From positions 1 to 41,960 of the forward strand of contig DSEL01000155.1 of NCBI GenBank assembly GCA_011056645.1: 41,960 nucleotides of DNA. The letters run 5' to 3'. The notes beneath the pieces are model-generated. The model was not told where the DNA came from. It saw nothing but the letters and a program-made list of their open reading frames with translations, and did no database searches. This document shows positions 34,513-41,960 of this stretch, one piece after another (the stretch's first letter is position 1; every line of letters starts with the position of its first letter). The DNA comes from Candidatus Atribacteria bacterium (GTDB lineage: Bacteria > Atribacterota > Phoenicimicrobiia > Phoenicimicrobiales > Phoenicimicrobiaceae). Both the position numbers and the translations under genes were made by a program.

Positions 34513-35258
34513 TTAGAGACGGGATCACCAGCAAATGTGATATGGCTATCGTGACCGAACCGTCTGCCGCCTTTGCTCCCAAAAATATACACAATCCCTG
34601 TTTACTTATTGGGGCAAGGGGGCGTTATTTATATGAAATTCAGGTTAAGAGAAAAGCTGCGCACGGGTCAATGCCCTATTTAGGTGTAAATGCAGTCGTC
34701 GATGCCTCTAAGATCGTTTTAGAGTTACAGAAGATGAAATTAGGATTTCATCCTTTCTTGGGAGAAGGATCTCTCTGTGTCCTCGTGATAGAAGGTGGGG
34801 GAGAGACACTTTCCGTTCCTGATAAATGTAGAATATTAGCTGATAGGCAGGTGGTTATAGGCGAAACCGAAGAGAGAGTAAAGAAAGATGTCGAAGAGGC
34901 TATTAAAAATTTAGATATAAAATCAGAAGTCGAAATTGGATTTCGAAATGCCCCTTATCCGGAAGCAAAAGAATATGGATCTTATATTACCTCACAGGAA
35001 CATAAATTGGTGAAGGAATTTGAAAATTCCTTTGAAGAATTATCTGGCCAAAAACCGGTCTTAAGTAGTTTTGTCAGCGTAGGGGATTTTAATTATCTAG
35101 GAGATAAAAATAGAGCGAATCTCCCCACTATAATCATTGGTGCGGACGGAGACAATGTCCACTCCCCGGAGGAATATGTAGATTTGGAAAGTGCAACAGA
35201 GATCACCAAAGTACTTATCGGAGGATTAATTAACTTATTATGCGCAGAAAAAAAATAG
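34491..35258 (+). pseudogene. 5'-truncated M20 family metallopeptidase/amidohydrolase
   Basis: Homology starts at about 34491 (TTDALIRDGITSKCDMAIVT) right after the transposase fragment and continues to the normal C-terminus. The dimerisation domain (VKRKAAHGSMPYLGVNAVVDASKIV) and the C-terminal metal His (GADGDNVHSPEEYV) are kept. The N-terminal ~140 residues with most metal ligands and the catalytic acids are gone. The first ATG is 34542, without a ribosome site. Relatives include ArgE/DapE, carboxypeptidase G2 and N-carbamoyl-amino-acid hydrolases. Loss of catalysis is near certain. Confidence 0.75.
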
Positions 35259-36257: not shown

Positions 36258-36300
36258 TGGTATATTTAAAATAGTAAATTGGGTCACCCAATTACCCAAT
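36258..36300 (+). promoter_or_regulatory. Extended -10 promoter and GntR/FadR-type operator
   Basis: TGGTATATT (36258-36266) is an extended -10. Just after the expected start of transcription is the perfect 15-bp palindrome ATTGGGT-C-ACCCAAT (36278-36292), followed by a third half-site ACCCAAT (36294-36300). The GT-n-AC core is the hallmark of FadR-subfamily sites. The gene behind it encodes a FadR-type regulator, so self-repression is likely. The rest of 36117-36257 is A/T-rich without a gene. Confidence 0.65.
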
Positions 36301-36321: not shown

Positions 36322-37014
36322 ATGGAATTTAAAGCAATTGCTCCTATTCGTTTATATGAAAGCGTATTAGATCAGATTGTAGCGTTAATTAAAAATAATG
36401 AATTGAAACCGGGAGATAAGCTTCCTCCCGAGAGAGAGCTAGCTGAAAAATTATCTATAAGCAGAGGCTCTCTAAGGGAAGCTTTCCGAGTTTTAGAGTC
36501 GAGAGGATTAATAAAAAGTAAACCAGGTGGAGGAAGATTTATTCGAGATATAAGAAAAAGTGATCCTAACGATACAGAAAATATTCTGTTAAGTTTGGAA
36601 AAATCTTCTATTTTAGAGTTATTAGAAGCAAGAGAAATATTTGAAGTAAAAATTGTCACACTGGCTGCCCAAAGGGCTACCGTCGAAGATATCGAATCAA
36701 TTGAGAAAGCTTTGAACAAAATGAACGGAGAGGGTAGTTTAGAAGATGATTTAAAAACAGAATCGGATACAGATTTCCATTTAGCTGTCGCGAGTGCTTC
36801 TCATAATTTTGTTTTTGTTAATATAATAAAATTACACTTGGATTTATTAAAAGATACACGAGAAAAGACTCAGCAAATTCCCGGAAGGCGGGAAGAACGA
36901 TGGCGGGAACACCAAAAAATACTGCAGGCTGTCAAAGAACATGAACCTGAAAAAGCAGGAGAAGCTATGCTGGAACATCTGAGAAAGGTGAGAGAAGTAT
37001 TAGCAAATATATAA
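36322..37014 (+). CDS. GntR-family (FadR/FCD) transcriptional regulator
   Basis: A 230-residue FadR-subfamily regulator. The winged helix is at residues ~8-75 (ELKPGDKLPPERELAEKLSISRGSLREAFRVLESRGLI). The all-helical FCD domain is at ~95-228 (ELLEAREIFEVKIVTLAA, DTDFHLAVASASHN, and WREHQKILQAVKEHEPEKA, which holds metal-binding His). FCD regulators usually sense organic acids such as lactate, citrate, glycolate or sugar acids, which fits the aconitase/dehydrogenase genes downstream. It heads the cluster and has an evident operator upstream. Confidence 0.93.
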   Translation: MEFKAIAPIRLYESVLDQIVALIKNNELKPGDKLPPERELAEKLSISRGSLREAFRVLESRGLIKSKPGGGRFIRDIRKSDPNDTENILLSLEKSSILELLEAREIFEVKIVTLAAQRATVEDIESIEKALNKMNGEGSLEDDLKTESDTDFHLAVASASHNFVFVNIIKLHLDLLKDTREKTQQIPGRREERWREHQKILQAVKEHEPEKAGEAMLEHLRKVREVLANI

Positions 37015-37107
37015 AGTTAGGCAGAAAATTATTTTAATAATGGGAAATGGTGAATAAAGATCAAGATTTTTAAGAATATTATCCAGTAAAAATGAGGAGA
37101 TTAGACT

Positions 37108-38466
37108 ATGAAAGAGATAAGAGTTCTATCACCCGTAGGAATGTTGGGATATGGTTTCCCAGCAGAATCTTTTCAGAAGGGTTTAGAAAAAAAACCCCAT
37201 GTCATTGCTGCTGATGCCGGCTCAACAGACGGTGGTCCCCACAAATTAGGTGCAGGCGTGGGCATTGTAAGCAAGGAAGCGACTAAAAAAGATCTAACTT
37301 TTATGTTAACAGCGGGTTGTAAAAATAAAATACCGGTTATTATCGGTTCTGCCGGGGGTTCAGGTGCTGAGGTTCATCTTAATTGGACTGTTGAAATAAT
37401 AAAGGAAATTGCCAAAGAGAAAAATCTACACTTTAAGATGGCCTTGATTCACGCAGAAGTTGAAAAAGATTATCTTCAAAAAAAGCTGGCTCAAGGGAAG
37501 ATAAAACCTTTGGGTCCTGTGCCGGAAATAACTTATAAAGATATAGAGGAGGCAATCCGAATTGTGGCAGTAATGGGGGTACATTCTCATATAAAGGCTT
37601 TAGAGATGGGGGCAGAGGTGATTATTGCTGGTCGCTCCAATGACCCGGCTATGTTTGCCGCCCTCCCCATTAAGGAAGGATATGATCCCGGACTGGCTTT
37701 ACACCTGGGAAAGATTTTAGAATGTGGAGCCATGGCATCTACACCCGGAACTACTTCTGATTGTATGATGGGATATCTAAGAGAGGATTGTTTTATAGTA
37801 GAACCTACTAATGCTCTACGAAAATGTATCCCCAGCACGGTAGCAGCCCATACTCTATATGAAAAGTCAAGTCCACTTCATATTATTGGCCCGGAAGGAA
37901 TGGTTGATGTTACGAGATGTAAATTCGAGCAATATAATGAAAGAGCAGTACGGGTATCAGGTTCCAAACTAAAGAGGAGCGAAACTATTCAGATAAAATT
38001 AGAGGGGGTAAGTAAGGTAGCTTATCGAACTATATCTATTGCCGGGGTAAGAGATCCAATTATGATTAAACAAATCAATGAGTGCGAAGAGCATGTTCGT
38101 AAAACAGTTGCCTCTTATTTTAATAGCATTCCTTACCAAAATTATCGATTAATCTTCCATGTTTATGGAAAGAACGGTGTCATGGGAGAATTAGAGCCTC
38201 AAAAAGAGATTACCTCTCATGAGCTTTGCCTTATTTTGGAAGTCGTAGCCAAAGACCAGGGGCTGGCCAACACTATTTGCGCCTTTGCTCGTTCTACTTT
38301 AATGCATTATTCTTATAAAGGCCGTATTGCAACCGCGGGTAATTTAGCTTTTCCCTATGCTCCATCGGATATACCTACCGGAGCGGTGTATAGATTTAAT
38401 ATTCATCACTTGGTAGAAGTTGATGATCCCGACGAGCTTTTTCCCATAGAAATGGTAGAAATTTGA
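37108..38466 (+). CDS. AtuA family protein (DUF1446)
   Basis: A 452-residue DUF1446/AtuA protein. The N-terminal half has LSPVGMLGYGF, VIAADAGSTDGGPHKLGAG and IIGSAGGSGAEVHLNWTVEI. The middle has VIIAGRSNDPAMFAALPI, GKILECGAMASTPGTTSDCMMG and EPTNALRKC. The namesake acts in acyclic terpene breakdown in Pseudomonas, but its reaction is unproven and most relatives, like this one, are not in terpene loci. AGGAG precedes the ATG. It is paired with DUF4387, its frequent partner, and followed by aconitase-type genes, so it likely acts on a hydroxy or unsaturated carboxylic acid. Confidence 0.88.
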   Translation: MKEIRVLSPVGMLGYGFPAESFQKGLEKKPHVIAADAGSTDGGPHKLGAGVGIVSKEATKKDLTFMLTAGCKNKIPVIIGSAGGSGAEVHLNWTVEIIKEIAKEKNLHFKMALIHAEVEKDYLQKKLAQGKIKPLGPVPEITYKDIEEAIRIVAVMGVHSHIKALEMGAEVIIAGRSNDPAMFAALPIKEGYDPGLALHLGKILECGAMASTPGTTSDCMMGYLREDCFIVEPTNALRKCIPSTVAAHTLYEKSSPLHIIGPEGMVDVTRCKFEQYNERAVRVSGSKLKRSETIQIKLEGVSKVAYRTISIAGVRDPIMIKQINECEEHVRKTVASYFNSIPYQNYRLIFHVYGKNGVMGELEPQKEITSHELCLILEVVAKDQGLANTICAFARSTLMHYSYKGRIATAGNLAFPYAPSDIPTGAVYRFNIHHLVEVDDPDELFPIEMVEI

Positions 38467-38499
38467 AATAATAATAAGTTTAAAAAGGAGAATACATAA

Positions 38500-38829
38500 A
38501 TGGCTAAAGAAGTTCCTATTATAGATTTAGTAAAAGTGATAAGAAGTAAAAATGCCGGTCCTTTTGAGTTGACCTTTGATATAATTTTTAAAGATAAAGA
38601 AACTTACCAAAAAGTTAAGGAAACCAAGGTAATTACTAAAGAGCTTATTGCGCAACTTTATCATATTCCCCTTGAGAAGGTGCTTCATTTTGTAGAGTTT
38701 GATCCAGCTAATGCCATAAAAGCTACTATTGTAAGGCAAGTAGATTCAGGAAGCATCGGGGAGACCGATGTATACGGTGCTCAACAACATGCTCCGCTTT
38801 TAGAGATTAAAATACCTTATGAGGAATAA
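38500..38829 (+). CDS. DUF4387 family protein, AtuA partner
   Basis: A 109-residue DUF4387 protein, with IDLVKVIRSKNAGPFELTFDIIF, the core of the family, and FDPANAIKATIVR, GSIGETDVYGAQQHAPLL towards the C-terminus. In many genomes it is encoded beside or fused to DUF1446 proteins and is probably a second subunit of the same enzyme. No activity is known. AAAAGGAG precedes the ATG; it follows the AtuA gene by 33 bases. Confidence 0.88.
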   Translation: MAKEVPIIDLVKVIRSKNAGPFELTFDIIFKDKETYQKVKETKVITKELIAQLYHIPLEKVLHFVEFDPANAIKATIVRQVDSGSIGETDVYGAQQHAPLLEIKIPYEE

Positions 38830-38840
38830 GGAGGAAAAAA

Positions 38841-39371
38841 ATGAGAGAAGATTTATTAAAATATATTCCAGAATTTGATTTAATTAAAGATTTAGATTTA
38901 AAAGAGAAGGTTTTGAAAGTCTGGGAGATAGCTCTTACGAACGGAGGCTGGGAAATGAAAGACCTTCAAAGAATGCCTTTTACTTTGTTGATTGACCCTT
39001 GTCCTTGTAATATGATTGAGCATATTAGGGGAGTAGTCAGTGTTTCCGCGAGTGCAGCGGAAGCCCTTCAAAGTATTTATAAAGATAAAGTAAAAATAAA
39101 TAAGAATTATCTTGTTGCCGGAGCACTGCTTCACGATATTGGGAAATTGGTAGAATACAGGGAGAAAAATGGAAAATTTATACCCAGTAATTTAGGGAAG
39201 TTAGTTCGCCACCCCATATCCGGAGTAGGTCTTTGTTACGGTCTGGACATTCCTCCGGAGGTAATACACATTATTGCTTCTCATTCCTGGGAGGGAGATC
39301 GTTCCCAGCGAACTCCGGAAGCCATTATTGTTCACCATGCCGATTTTACTAACTTCGAACAGTTTAAATAA
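38841..39371 (+). CDS. HD-domain protein of unknown substrate
   Basis: A 176-residue protein. HD-fold metal residues are visible in order: H61 (IEHIRGV), H98 and D99 (ALLHDIGKLVEY), H124 (RHPISGV), H148 (ASHSWEG) and D168 (HHADF). A CPC motif (IDPCPCN) lies just before the first His. HD proteins are usually phosphohydrolases, but some act as hydratases, lyases or oxygenases, and its place inside a hydroxy-acid gene cluster leaves the reaction open. AAGGAGG precedes the ATG, 11 bases after DUF4387. Confidence 0.85.
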   Translation: MREDLLKYIPEFDLIKDLDLKEKVLKVWEIALTNGGWEMKDLQRMPFTLLIDPCPCNMIEHIRGVVSVSASAAEALQSIYKDKVKINKNYLVAGALLHDIGKLVEYREKNGKFIPSNLGKLVRHPISGVGLCYGLDIPPEVIHIIASHSWEGDRSQRTPEAIIVHHADFTNFEQFK

Positions 39372-39378
39372 GCTTTAA

Positions 39379-39396
39379 TACCAAAACCTGTTGGTA
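39379..39396 (+). other. Short stem-loop between the HD gene and the aconitase-type gene
   Basis: TACCAA - AACCTG - TTGGTA, a perfect 6-bp stem. No T-run follows directly, so it is not a strong terminator; it may be an RNA-processing or pause element, or chance. Confidence 0.3.
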
Positions 39397-39465
39397 AATA
39401 AAAATATACTTTTATTCAGTAAAGAATATTTATAGAAAAAGGTTCTTTATATTAAGGAGGAAGAT

Positions 39466-40725
39466 ATGGGTAAGACTTTTGCAGAGAAAGTATTAGCCCT
39501 TAAATCGGGTAAAAAAAATGTAGTTAGCGGAGAAATTGTAACTGTTTCTCCGGATATAGTCATGTCTCATGATAATTCGGCCGCTATAGCTAAAAAATTC
39601 AAACAAATTGGGATTGATAAAGTAAAACATCCGGAGAAGATAATCATTCCTCTGGATCATTGTATCCCGGCCGCAACAGAAAAATATGCTTCTAATCATA
39701 AAGAGATAAGAGAATTTGTTCGGGAACAGAAGATCGAACAATTTTATGATATTAATACCGGAGTCTGTCATCAGGTTCTTCCCGAAAAAGGACACGTCGT
39801 TCCCGGAACTCTCATATTGGGAGCGGATTCCCATACTACCACCTACGGAGCATTTGGTGCTTTTTCCACCGGGATTGGAAGAAGCGAAGTGGCTTCCATC
39901 TGGGCAACAGATGAAATCTGGCTTAGAGTACCGGAGACTATCAAGATAAATATTGAAGGAAAAATACCTTCCGGAATATATCCTAAAGATATTATCCTCT
40001 ACATTATTGGGAATTTAAGTGCGGACGGTACATTGTATAAAGCAGTAGAGTTTTGCGGAAAAGTAATTGAGGAAATGGATATGGGGGGCAGAATGACTCT
40101 ATGCAATATGGCAGTGGAGATGGGAGCAAAGATCGGCTATGTAGAACCAGACGAAAAAACGATACAATGGCTTGCTTCAAGGACCAATAAAAAATACCAA
40201 ATAATAAAATCAGATGCTGATGCCGACTATGAGAAAATTATGAATTACGATATAAGTGATTTGGAACCTCAAATTGCCTGCCCTCATACCGTAGATAATG
40301 TAAAATCGGTAGCGAAGGTGGCGGGAACTAAAATTGACCAGGCATTAATCGGAACCTGTACCAATGGAAGATTGGAAGATCTAAAAGTTGCCAGTAAAAT
40401 TCTTAATGGTAAAAAAATTGCTAAGGGAGTCAGACTTTTAATCTTTCCTGCTTCAATGGAGATCTTTGCCCAGGCGATGGAATTAGGAATTCTTCAGGGA
40501 TTAATCAAAAGCGGAGCGGTAATCATGAATCCAGGATGTGGCCCTTGTTTGGGAGCCCATGAGGGGGCTTTAGCTCCCGGAGAAGTTTGTTTGAGTACTG
40601 CCAATAGAAATTTTAAGGGAAGAATGGGATGTAAAGAGGCAGAGATTTATTTAGCCAGTCCGGCTATTGTGGCCATTTCTTCCCTTTGTGGTGAGATTAC
40701 CGATATAGGAGGGGATTTAAAGTGA
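39466..40725 (+). CDS. Aconitase-family large subunit (3-isopropylmalate dehydratase/homoaconitase type)
   Basis: A 419-residue LeuC/HacA-type subunit. The 4Fe-4S ligands are C298 (IGTCTNGR), C358 and C361 (NPGCGPCLGAHEGAL). It also has LGADSHTTTYGAFGAFSTGIG, IPLDHCIPAA and STANRNFKGRMG. It would isomerise a hydroxy di- or tricarboxylate through dehydration and rehydration with its small subunit. Here it accompanies AtuA/DUF4387 and an isocitrate-type dehydrogenase, with no leucine or lysine biosynthetic synthase in view. AAGGAGG precedes the ATG; it overlaps the small subunit by 4 bases. Confidence 0.9.
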   Translation: MGKTFAEKVLALKSGKKNVVSGEIVTVSPDIVMSHDNSAAIAKKFKQIGIDKVKHPEKIIIPLDHCIPAATEKYASNHKEIREFVREQKIEQFYDINTGVCHQVLPEKGHVVPGTLILGADSHTTTYGAFGAFSTGIGRSEVASIWATDEIWLRVPETIKINIEGKIPSGIYPKDIILYIIGNLSADGTLYKAVEFCGKVIEEMDMGGRMTLCNMAVEMGAKIGYVEPDEKTIQWLASRTNKKYQIIKSDADADYEKIMNYDISDLEPQIACPHTVDNVKSVAKVAGTKIDQALIGTCTNGRLEDLKVASKILNGKKIAKGVRLLIFPASMEIFAQAMELGILQGLIKSGAVIMNPGCGPCLGAHEGALAPGEVCLSTANRNFKGRMGCKEAEIYLASPAIVAISSLCGEITDIGGDLK

Positions 40726-41225
40726 ATATTAAAGGGAGAGTATGGAAATATGGTGATGATGTAAATACCGATATTATCTTTCCGGGTAAATATACTTATA
40801 CTATTTCCGATCCTAAAGAGATGGCACTCCATGCCCTGGAAGACCTTGATTCGAAGTTTGTCAAAGAAGTTGAAAAGGACGATATTATTGTAGCGGGAAA
40901 GAATTTTGGTTGTGGCAGTTCCCGGGAACAAGCCGCTACCTGTCTAAAATATGCGGGAGTGGGAGCTGTTGTAGCCCAATCATTCTCCAGAATATTTTTT
41001 CGGAATGCTATTAATCAGGGACTTCCCGTGATTCAAAGCAAAGAAGCAGTGGAGAATATATCTTCAGGTGAATTAATTGAAATTGATTTTGAAAGAGGAA
41101 AATTGTTGTGCAAAGAGGGAGTTCTTAATTTTCCTCCTTTGCCGGAATTGGTATTAGGGATTCTTACAGATGGGGGACTTATTCCTCACACTAAAAAATT
41201 ATTGAAAATGGAGAAGGGAGAATAA
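40722..41225 (+). CDS. Aconitase-family small subunit (LeuD/HacB type)
   Basis: A 167-residue swivel-domain subunit. It has GDDVNTDIIFPGKY, then the specificity loop YTYT (residues 24-27), GKNFGCGSSREQAATCLKYAG and SFSRIFFRNAINQGLPVI. The loop differs from the YLRT reported for homoaconitases and the YLVY-like forms of isopropylmalate isomerases, so the substrate may be neither. GTG start overlapping the previous stop (GTGA), with GGAGGGG upstream. It partners the large subunit. Confidence 0.9.
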   Translation: MNIKGRVWKYGDDVNTDIIFPGKYTYTISDPKEMALHALEDLDSKFVKEVEKDDIIVAGKNFGCGSSREQAATCLKYAGVGAVVAQSFSRIFFRNAINQGLPVIQSKEAVENISSGELIEIDFERGKLLCKEGVLNFPPLPELVLGILTDGGLIPHTKKLLKMEKGE

Positions 41226-41226
41226 A

Positions 41227-41960
41227 ATGGCGAAATATAAGATAGCCTGGTTACCGGGTGATGGAATCGGAAATGATGTAATGGAAGCAGCAAAAATTGT
41301 ATTAGATGAACTTAAACTTGATGCAGAATATTTGCCTGGCGATGTGGGTTGGGAATTTTGGAAAAAAGAAGGAAATCCTTTACCTGACAGGACTATAAAA
41401 ATTCTCCAAGATACAGATTGTTGTCTCTTTGGAGCGATAACTTCCAAACCTAAAGAAGAAGCAAAAAAGGAACTTGCCCCCGAACTCAAAGAAAAAGGGT
41501 ATGTTTATTCGAGCCCAATTGTAAGATTACGTCAGGAATTTAAGTTACATACGAACTTACGTCCCTGTAAAGCTTATAAAGGAAACCCTCTCAATTATCG
41601 TGATGATATAGATTTGGTGGTTTTTAGGGAAAATACCGAAGGATTGTACAGTGGAGTAGAGTTTCATCCTCTACCCCAAAAGGTAATGGATTCTCTGGTA
41701 GAAAGTCATCCCAAGATGAAAAGATTTAAAGACATCCCTTTAGAAGATATTGCTTTATCTTGCAGGATCTTTACTCGGAAAGCCTGTCAATCTATTATCC
41801 GTCAGGGTTTTGAATATGCCAAGAAGTATAATAGAAGTTCAGTTACGGTAATTGAGAAACCAAATGTAATCAGAGAAACCAGTGGATTAATGATAAGAGA
41901 GGCTCGTAAAATTGCGCAAGAATATCCTGGAATCGAACTTTGGGAGACCAATGTAGATGC
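41227..41960 (+). CDS. Isocitrate/isopropylmalate-type dehydrogenase (3' end outside window)
   Basis: 244 complete codons are visible. The start is ATG 41227, one base after the small-subunit stop. It has LPGDGIGNDVM at the N-terminus, VRLRQEFKLHTNLRPCKA with the substrate-binding arginines (R102, R112), R134 and Y141 in FRENTEGLYSGVEFH, and K211 with EKPNVIRETSGL; the metal Asp segment lies just past the edge. It would oxidatively decarboxylate a 2-hydroxy acid made by the aconitase-type pair. Cofactor and substrate specificity cannot be called without the C-terminal part. Confidence 0.9.
   Translation, partial: MAKYKIAWLPGDGIGNDVMEAAKIVLDELKLDAEYLPGDVGWEFWKKEGNPLPDRTIKILQDTDCCLFGAITSKPKEEAKKELAPELKEKGYVYSSPIVRLRQEFKLHTNLRPCKAYKGNPLNYRDDIDLVVFRENTEGLYSGVEFHPLPQKVMDSLVESHPKMKRFKDIPLEDIALSCRIFTRKACQSIIRQGFEYAKKYNRSSVTVIEKPNVIRETSGLMIREARKIAQEYPGIELWETNVD

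Follow-up and report, generated by a model that had tools for sequence, protein, structure and literature searches.

A candidate operon for coenzyme-A-free citramalate metabolism in uncultured Atribacterota

The window analyzed here is the whole of contig DSEL01000155.1 (C155; 41960 bp) of a Candidatus Atribacteria bacterium, whose 2.25-Mb genome assembly consists of 231 contigs and is 97% complete. At positions 36322–41960 this contig carries an operon for a GntR/FCD regulator, an AtuA-family protein, a DUF4387 protein, an HD-domain protein, a LeuC/LeuD-type isomerase, and a beta-decarboxylating dehydrogenase. With a probability of roughly 60%, we consider this operon to be a coenzyme-A (CoA)-free citramalate module that links acetate and pyruvate to 2-oxobutyrate. 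The AtuA and DUF4387 proteins match both subunits of a solved citramalate lyase (CmlAB), and hence the hydroxy acid in question is most likely citramalate.

In the proposed scheme, CmlAB would interconvert acetate (or an activated form of it) plus pyruvate with citramalate, the carboxylate probably being activated by a nucleotide and not by CoA. The LeuCD-type isomerase would convert citramalate via citraconate to 3-methylmalate and back, and an NADP-type dehydrogenase would interconvert 3-methylmalate with 2-oxobutyrate, CO2, and NADPH. A FadR-type repressor sensing a small acid would control the operon from a conserved operator located 5' of its own gene. What we infer here is the substrate of each step, the involvement of ATP or ADP, what the HD protein does, and which way the pathway runs. 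The original prediction, made from the letters of the same DNA, had proposed that a hydroxy acid is made or activated, isomerized, and decarboxylated to a 2-oxo acid; this logic fits well, with citramalate as the most likely acid, which may be either made or cleaved.

All genes of the operon lie on the plus strand in the order GntR/FCD-AtuA-DUF4387-HD-LeuC-LeuD-Iso_dh. The intergenic gaps along the operon are 93, 33, 11, 94, −4, and 1 bp, and a Shine-Dalgarno-like stretch precedes each gene. The five families had been predicted to be joined in one operon, and all of them were recovered at the expected place and strand. This arrangement is not a chance one, as its order is kept in nine related genomes. 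DUF4387 was found above the cut-off in ten of 50 Atribacterota-level genomes, nine of which belong to the window's own family, and the nearest relatives of the window's DUF4387 gene are Atribacterota metagenome-assembled genomes (MAGs; 89–93% protein identity). In all nine family genomes, cmlA-cmlB-HD-leuC is followed by leuD and idh wherever the contig allows. The end of the window at position 41960 falls inside the Iso_dh gene, and the downstream genes were therefore read in the relatives instead. Five of these (L003, L004, L006, L008, and L010) reach a gene of the MmgE/PrpD family after idh, and where the contigs run far enough, prpD is followed by two genes of the saccharopine dehydrogenase family. 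An apparent 754-aa fusion of the dehydrogenase with its neighbor in L004 was rejected, because a run of N bridges idh and prpD.

Outside this family, DUF4387 occurs in two of 103 Thermotogota genomes, and the HD protein was detected in the same two; the probability that two such pairs coincide by chance is 1.9e-4 if shared ancestry is ignored. One of the two (L012) contains cmlA-cmlB-HD-leuC-leuD consecutively before its contig breaks after leuD. In the other (G050), cmlAB, HD-leuC-leuD, and a dehydrogenase 75–76% identical to that of the window are located on separate contigs. The AtuA of the tenth Atribacterota genome (L044) is a distant one, and its gene is separated from DUF4387 by a PrpD-family gene. 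In this member of another Atribacterota family, AtuA, MmgE/PrpD, DUF4387, and an MttB-family methyltransferase follow in succession (L044:6234-10874), so that PrpD-family genes recur beside AtuA and DUF4387.

The genes of CmlA, the citramalate lyase large-subunit homologue of the AtuA family (37108–38466, plus strand; PF07287, E = 5.9e-23), and of CmlB, the small-subunit homologue (38500–38829, plus strand; PF14330, E = 1e-42), are 33 bp apart. A sequence search of the PDB returned a single real match for each protein, full-length in both cases. CmlA matched 9erq_A, “Citramalate lyase, subunit A (cmlA)” (phmmer E = 8.9e-143; 51% identity over 437 aa), and CmlB matched 9erq_B, “DUF4387 ... Citramalate lyase, subunit B (cmlB)” (phmmer E = 4.9e-31; 52% identity). 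The AlphaFold2 (AF2) model of the window CmlA (mean predicted local distance difference test score, pLDDT, 82) had a single significant Foldseek match, 9evf_A (E = 2.6e-56, template modeling score 0.91). Thus, the two proteins most likely constitute a citramalate-acting enzyme pair and share the two-subunit AtuA+DUF4387 composition and the fold with the lyase of 9erq and 9evf, which belongs to the family of ECs_0760/ECs_0759 of E. coli O157. Their earlier description as partners of unknown reaction is outdated. An assignment of 9erq to E. coli O157 itself was rejected, as ECs_0760 is 92% identical and hence a close relative. The title of 9evf, “Citramalate lyase - ADP - pyruvate complex”, suggests by analogy that the window's CmlAB binds a nucleotide and probably works through an acyl phosphate.

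The chemistry attributed to the protein family is compatible with this assignment. AtuA of acyclic terpene utilization was reported to be an acetate lyase acting at a tertiary hydroxy acid (PMC4847356), and ThnQ/ThnS of naphthalene degradation are reported AtuA-family lyases that also act at tertiary hydroxy acids (PMC12016498). Because of these reports, retro-aldol cleavage at a tertiary alcohol is, by analogy, the chemistry of the family. In contrast to the scheme proposed here, the substrates in those two systems are CoA esters. On the phylogenetic tree, the window CmlA groups with the citramalate lyases, and other AtuA-family proteins (L013, L015, and L044) are far from it.

Close CmlA homologues are common in Bacillota, where 73 of 399 sampled genomes contained one at E ≤ 1e-100. 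Methylaspartate ammonia-lyase and/or glutamate mutase accompany 27 of the 39 Bacillota CmlA loci that were read, and the CmlAB pair of E. coli O157 likewise adjoins mal (methylaspartate ammonia-lyase) and glutamate mutase genes. The methylaspartate pathway leads from glutamate via mesaconate and (S)-citramalate to acetate and pyruvate (PMC8473912). A 2015 study took note of the DUF1446 gene; it reported no success in finding the enzyme that cleaves citramalate and did not settle what becomes of this acid (PMC4682846). Like this pathway of glutamate fermentation, the module of the window would end in the cleavage of citramalate to acetate and pyruvate, but it contains a LeuCD-type isomerase where the methylaspartate pathway has a class I fumarase-type mesaconase. 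A search with PF05034 revealed no methylaspartate ammonia-lyase in the window's genome, and no control genome gave a match, though the model hits a Carboxydothermus gene in L014. An aconitase-family gene adjoins CmlAB in L117 and L123. By eye, the first of these loci (L117:3924-13301, Bacillota) combines the aconitase-family gene and CmlAB with TctCBA- and CitDEF-like genes, which places two acetate lyases in one cluster.

The window CmlA is nevertheless not a typical member of the methylaspartate-type CmlA. Judged from the alignment and tree, it belongs to a separate subclade, in which 11 CmlA from Atribacterota and Thermotogota form one clade (Shimodaira–Hasegawa-like approximate likelihood ratio test, SH-aLRT, 99); the methylaspartate-associated CmlA fall within another clade (SH-aLRT 92). 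Between these 11 sequences and 30 methylaspartate-type CmlA, 23 positions differ, each group having its own residue fixed to at least 90%, and these also set the subclade apart from the solved lyase; ~100 columns do not vary in either group. Several of the differences lie inside conserved motifs (SPVGMLGYGFP vs SPTAILGYGFP, TPGTTSDC vs TPGSGSDC, and H159 vs E). The window protein did not conform to the residues shared by methylaspartate-pathway CmlA, in a comparison that is partly confounded by phylogeny. LeuCD-family enzymes act on (R)-citramalate, whereas (S)-citramalate is the isomer formed in the methylaspartate pathway. Because of this difference, we propose that a changed stereospecificity toward the opposite citramalate stereoisomer may be the simplest functional reading of the pattern, which shared ancestry alone could also explain.

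The large subunit of the isomerase (39466–40725, plus strand; PF00330, E = 2.5e-105) contains the motifs GADSHT, GTCTNGR, and CGPC with the cluster cysteines, as expected of an Fe-S enzyme of the aconitase superfamily, and is a probable citramalate/3-methylmalate isomerase component. The small subunit (40722–41225, plus strand; PF00694, E = 2.6e-19) has a GTG start and overlaps leuC by 4 bp. Both fall into broad homoaconitase/isopropylmalate isomerase subfamilies (564 bits for hacA_fam), and neither reached an NCBIfam equivalog cut-off, including those of LEU2 and HacA_Meth. The scores stayed below the cut-offs for 3-isopropylmalate isomerase (489.3 of 610.65 bits for TIGR02083 and 172.7 of 245.85 bits for TIGR02084) and for homoaconitase (525.7 of 550, and 174 and 164.1 of 230 bits, HacA/HacB models). 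For comparison, the LeuC encoded on contig C151 of the same genome scored 708.5 on TIGR02083. The best PDB match of LeuD was 3vba, the small subunit of an isopropylmalate/citramalate isomerase. The substrate loop of LeuD, KYTYT, is one residue longer than usual. This unusual YTYT loop, already pointed out in the original prediction, turned out to be common to all cml-linked LeuD of Atribacterota and Thermotogota, whereas in the window's own genome the canonical LeuD, encoded in the leucine operon, has RYLNT and a third copy RYLYL. The homoaconitase small subunit 2pkp has the loop YLRT, and its Arg is absent from the window LeuD. In homoaconitase, this Arg binds the extra carboxylate, and a loop that lacks it speaks against homocitrate or citrate as the substrate; a group the size of a methyl would fit the bulkier Tyr. 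The third LeuC/LeuD pair (loop YLYL) lies on contig C152 in one run with a split class I fumarase, a malic enzyme, and a LarA-like racemase (L034:4404-10969).

The dehydrogenase gene (41227–41960, plus strand) is incomplete and covers ~244 of ~375 residues. The truncated copy still scored above the cut-off for PF00180 (E = 5.7e-36), which is also matched by the full-length orthologue L037. Among the NCBIfam models for isopropylmalate, isocitrate, homoisocitrate, and tartrate dehydrogenases, no equivalog cut-off was reached, the best score being 360.6 of 540 for AksF2. The helix in contact with the variable arm has the sequence SSPIVRLRQ, in which Ile takes the place of the Asn of isocitrate dehydrogenases (S..I vs S..N), and the Arg-containing helix of the Thermus homoisocitrate dehydrogenase is missing. 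At the adenine site, the dehydrogenase has HGSAPKYAGQYKV; there, the LeuB encoded in this genome has the NAD-type sequence DIAGKNIS, with DI in place of KY..V. We take HGSAPKYAGQYKV to resemble the Lys-Tyr...Val of the E. coli NADP isocitrate dehydrogenase. The complete orthologues L006, L007, L008, and L010 share the NADP-type motif KYAGQYKV, which is KYARQYKV in L003. From the variable-arm Ile and the NADP-type motif, 3-methylmalate is predicted as the substrate and NADP as the cofactor.

The FadR-type regulator (GntR/FCD; 36322–37014, plus strand; PF00392, E = 3.2e-19 and PF07729, E = 1.9e-25) is the first gene of the operon and reached no NCBIfam equivalog cut-off. Its probable operator, the nested inverted repeat ATTGGGTCACCCAATTACCCAAT (36278–36300), is located 21 bp 5' of the GntR start and is the sole TGGGT-N9-ACCCA match within the window. 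The site is kept upstream of GntR in all seven relatives whose contigs reach it (L003–L009), with the conserved palindrome TTGGGT-N9-ACCCAA. The suggestion that the regulator has its own operator is thus borne out, and one promoter region would probably serve the whole operon. A FadR-like TNGT-ACNA operator was rejected, since its matches were chance-like and present in some relatives only, in contrast to the conserved palindrome. In L005, L006, and L007, a palindrome resembling repetitive extragenic palindromic or miniature inverted-repeat transposable elements (TTGTCATTACGAGGAACGAAGTGA...) is inserted between the regulator and cmlA.

The HD-domain protein (38841–39371, plus strand; PF01966, E = 5.6e-14) retains H61, H98-D99, H124, H148, and D168 as invariant residues in the alignment. 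The CPC motif that had drawn attention to it is present in the window (residues 54–56) but is not conserved outside Atribacterota, as the Thermotogota orthologues keep the first Cys only. A sequence search of the PDB gave no match for this protein, and its AF2 model was poor (pLDDT 47, 11 sequences). In L006, a 122-aa open reading frame resembling GxxExxY proteins lies between HD and leuC.

No acetyl-CoA-dependent synthase of the HMGL family is encoded in the operon. This local absence had led to the view that ordinary biosynthesis is unlikely; the conclusion stands, but not the absence beyond the window, because contig C151 of the same genome contains ilvD, ilvB, ilvN, ilvC, leuA, a cimA-like gene, leuC, leuD, and leuB. 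On this contig, leuA scored above two NCBIfam cut-offs and leuC above its cut-off, and the Leptospira-CimA-like gene reached 656 bits, below its cut-off of 950. The operon of the window is hence a second, separately regulated set, which argues against plain isoleucine synthesis. Compared with the citramalate-dependent, threonine-independent isoleucine pathway (CimA-LeuCD-LeuB), the predicted intermediates are the same (citramalate, citraconate, 3-methylmalate, and 2-oxobutyrate), whereas an acetate-forming or -using CmlAB replaces the acetyl-CoA-dependent CimA, the dehydrogenase has an NADP-type motif, and the canonical set is encoded separately.

A second isoleucine pathway from free acetate, in which CmlAB would synthesize citramalate with ATP and LeuCD and the dehydrogenase would yield 2-oxobutyrate, is an unlikely alternative that has several arguments on its side. 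Its three steps correspond exactly to the citramalate-dependent synthesis of isoleucine, 9evf contains ADP and pyruvate so that ATP could drive the synthesis, and the JS1 Atribacteria inhabit anoxic sediments rich in acetate, which has been proposed as their carbon source (PMC6776118). The complete gene set on C151 speaks against this alternative, as do the FadR-type regulator that precedes the operon in place of a leader or attenuator and the lack of any linked ilv gene in the relatives read. Furthermore, the Thermotogota genome that has all parts of the module (G050) contains its sole ketol-acid reductoisomerase (KARI)-like gene in a tripartite ATP-independent periplasmic (TRAP) transporter cluster, and this gene was rejected as proof of isoleucine synthesis. 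It lies beside the TRAP transporter and a fumarylacetoacetate-hydrolase-like gene (L145:74-4866), which suggests a catabolic KARI. In the same genome, a MAG for which absences are weak evidence, neither leuA nor cimA was found, the sole HMGL match being a fragment like the alpha subunit of oxaloacetate decarboxylase. The second regulated set and the lack of leuA and cimA in G050 favor a catabolic or anaplerotic role.

For the citramalate module itself, we consider cleavage of C5 acids, or of 2-oxobutyrate via reductive carboxylation, to pyruvate and acetate somewhat more probable than synthesis. This preference is based on the cleaving role of the family in glutamate fermentation, the location of the biosynthetic synthases elsewhere in the genome, the type of the regulator, and the neighboring catabolic genes (hydantoinase-type, carbamoyltransferase/carbamate kinase, and aminotransferase). 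A more specific possibility, which we regard as doubtful, is a free-acid fermentation of threonine- or methionine-derived 2-oxobutyrate, which would be reductively carboxylated with NADPH to 3-methylmalate, then isomerized to (R)-citramalate, and finally cleaved to acetate (or acetyl phosphate) and pyruvate by a divergent, (R)-specific, nucleotide-using CmlAB. If true, this fermentation would be a redox-neutral conversion of 2-oxobutyrate to two acetates and the C5 counterpart of the reductive tricarboxylic acid cycle branch with citrate lyase (2-oxoglutarate via isocitrate and citrate to acetate and oxaloacetate). Both would use a carboxylating dehydrogenase, an aconitase-family isomerase, and an acetate-releasing lyase, but the C5 route has a methyl group in place of the carboxymethyl arm, and the lyase families are unrelated.

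Alternatively, two catabolic units without a common intermediate may share the operon, with CmlAB acting on one acid and LeuCD and the dehydrogenase on another, for example a tartrate- or malate-like one. The separation of HD-LeuCD and the dehydrogenase from cmlAB onto other contigs in G050 and the lack of an adjoining LeuCD at most Bacillota CmlAB would agree with such units. We judge them improbable, as HD and DUF4387 occur in the same two of the Thermotogota genomes and this dehydrogenase subfamily in one of them, CmlAB again adjoins an aconitase-family gene in L117 and L123, and each enzyme family yields a known substrate of the following one. Still less probable is a reverse alpha-aminoadipate route from lysine-derived 2-oxoadipate via homoisocitrate and homocitrate to acetate and 2-oxoglutarate: in the relatives, the operon extends to a gene whose protein resembles PH1688 of Pyrococcus (PDB 3abi), an L-lysine dehydrogenase, class III aminotransferases are nearby, and the top NCBIfam score of the dehydrogenase, far below its cut-off, is for the AksF2 homoisocitrate dehydrogenase, but the homoaconitase-loop Arg is missing in LeuD, the dehydrogenase lacks the Arg helix of the Thermus enzyme, and CmlA groups with citramalate lyases.

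Several points weigh against the citramalate module as proposed. The identity to the solved citramalate lyase is only ~51%, and the substrate of CmlA may differ, given the 23 differently fixed positions. The CmlAB and LeuCD steps connect only if the stereochemistry of citramalate matches, and the C5 specificity of LeuCD and the dehydrogenase is deduced where no equivalog cut-off was reached. The PrpD- and saccharopine-dehydrogenase-family genes in the operons of the relatives are unexplained by the scheme, and the absences in Thermotogota come from MAGs and are hence weak.

In the remainder of the window, inspection by eye revealed a large catabolic island (positions ~84–32189) with genes for xanthine-dehydrogenase-type subunits, a knotted carbamoyltransferase, carbamate kinase, a dihydropyrimidinase-type hydantoinase, a hydantoin racemase-like protein, aldehyde ferredoxin oxidoreductase, a branched-chain amino acid ABC transporter, and a GTP-type phosphoenolpyruvate carboxykinase. 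The open reading frame at positions 1–999 consists of ~60 radical-SAM-like residues followed by a CoxM-type FAD-binding subunit and probably represents a chimera created by the assembly where the contig begins. An M20 peptidase gene (34542–35258) appears truncated, as only the C-terminal part is present (TIGR01910 profile positions 168–373).

A literature search, thin on subscription papers and preprints, retrieved no paper on DUF4387, on CmlAB, or on Atribacter together with citramalate, and no account of CmlAB joined to LeuCD and a beta-decarboxylating dehydrogenase. The lyase itself is known, and its pathway context, as proposed here, is new. Our analysis places a recently solved, acetate-releasing lyase family in this new context in an uncultured deep-sediment phylum, and it turns the unknown-function annotations AtuA and DUF4387 into a testable three-step reaction sequence. 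If the proposed module is correct, Atribacterota would have a CoA-free connection from acetate and pyruvate to 2-oxobutyrate, and the AtuA family would include two or more citramalate subclades, whose stereospecificities may be opposite. The annotation of hundreds of genomes would then be affected, given the close CmlA homologues in 73 of the 399 sampled Bacillota.

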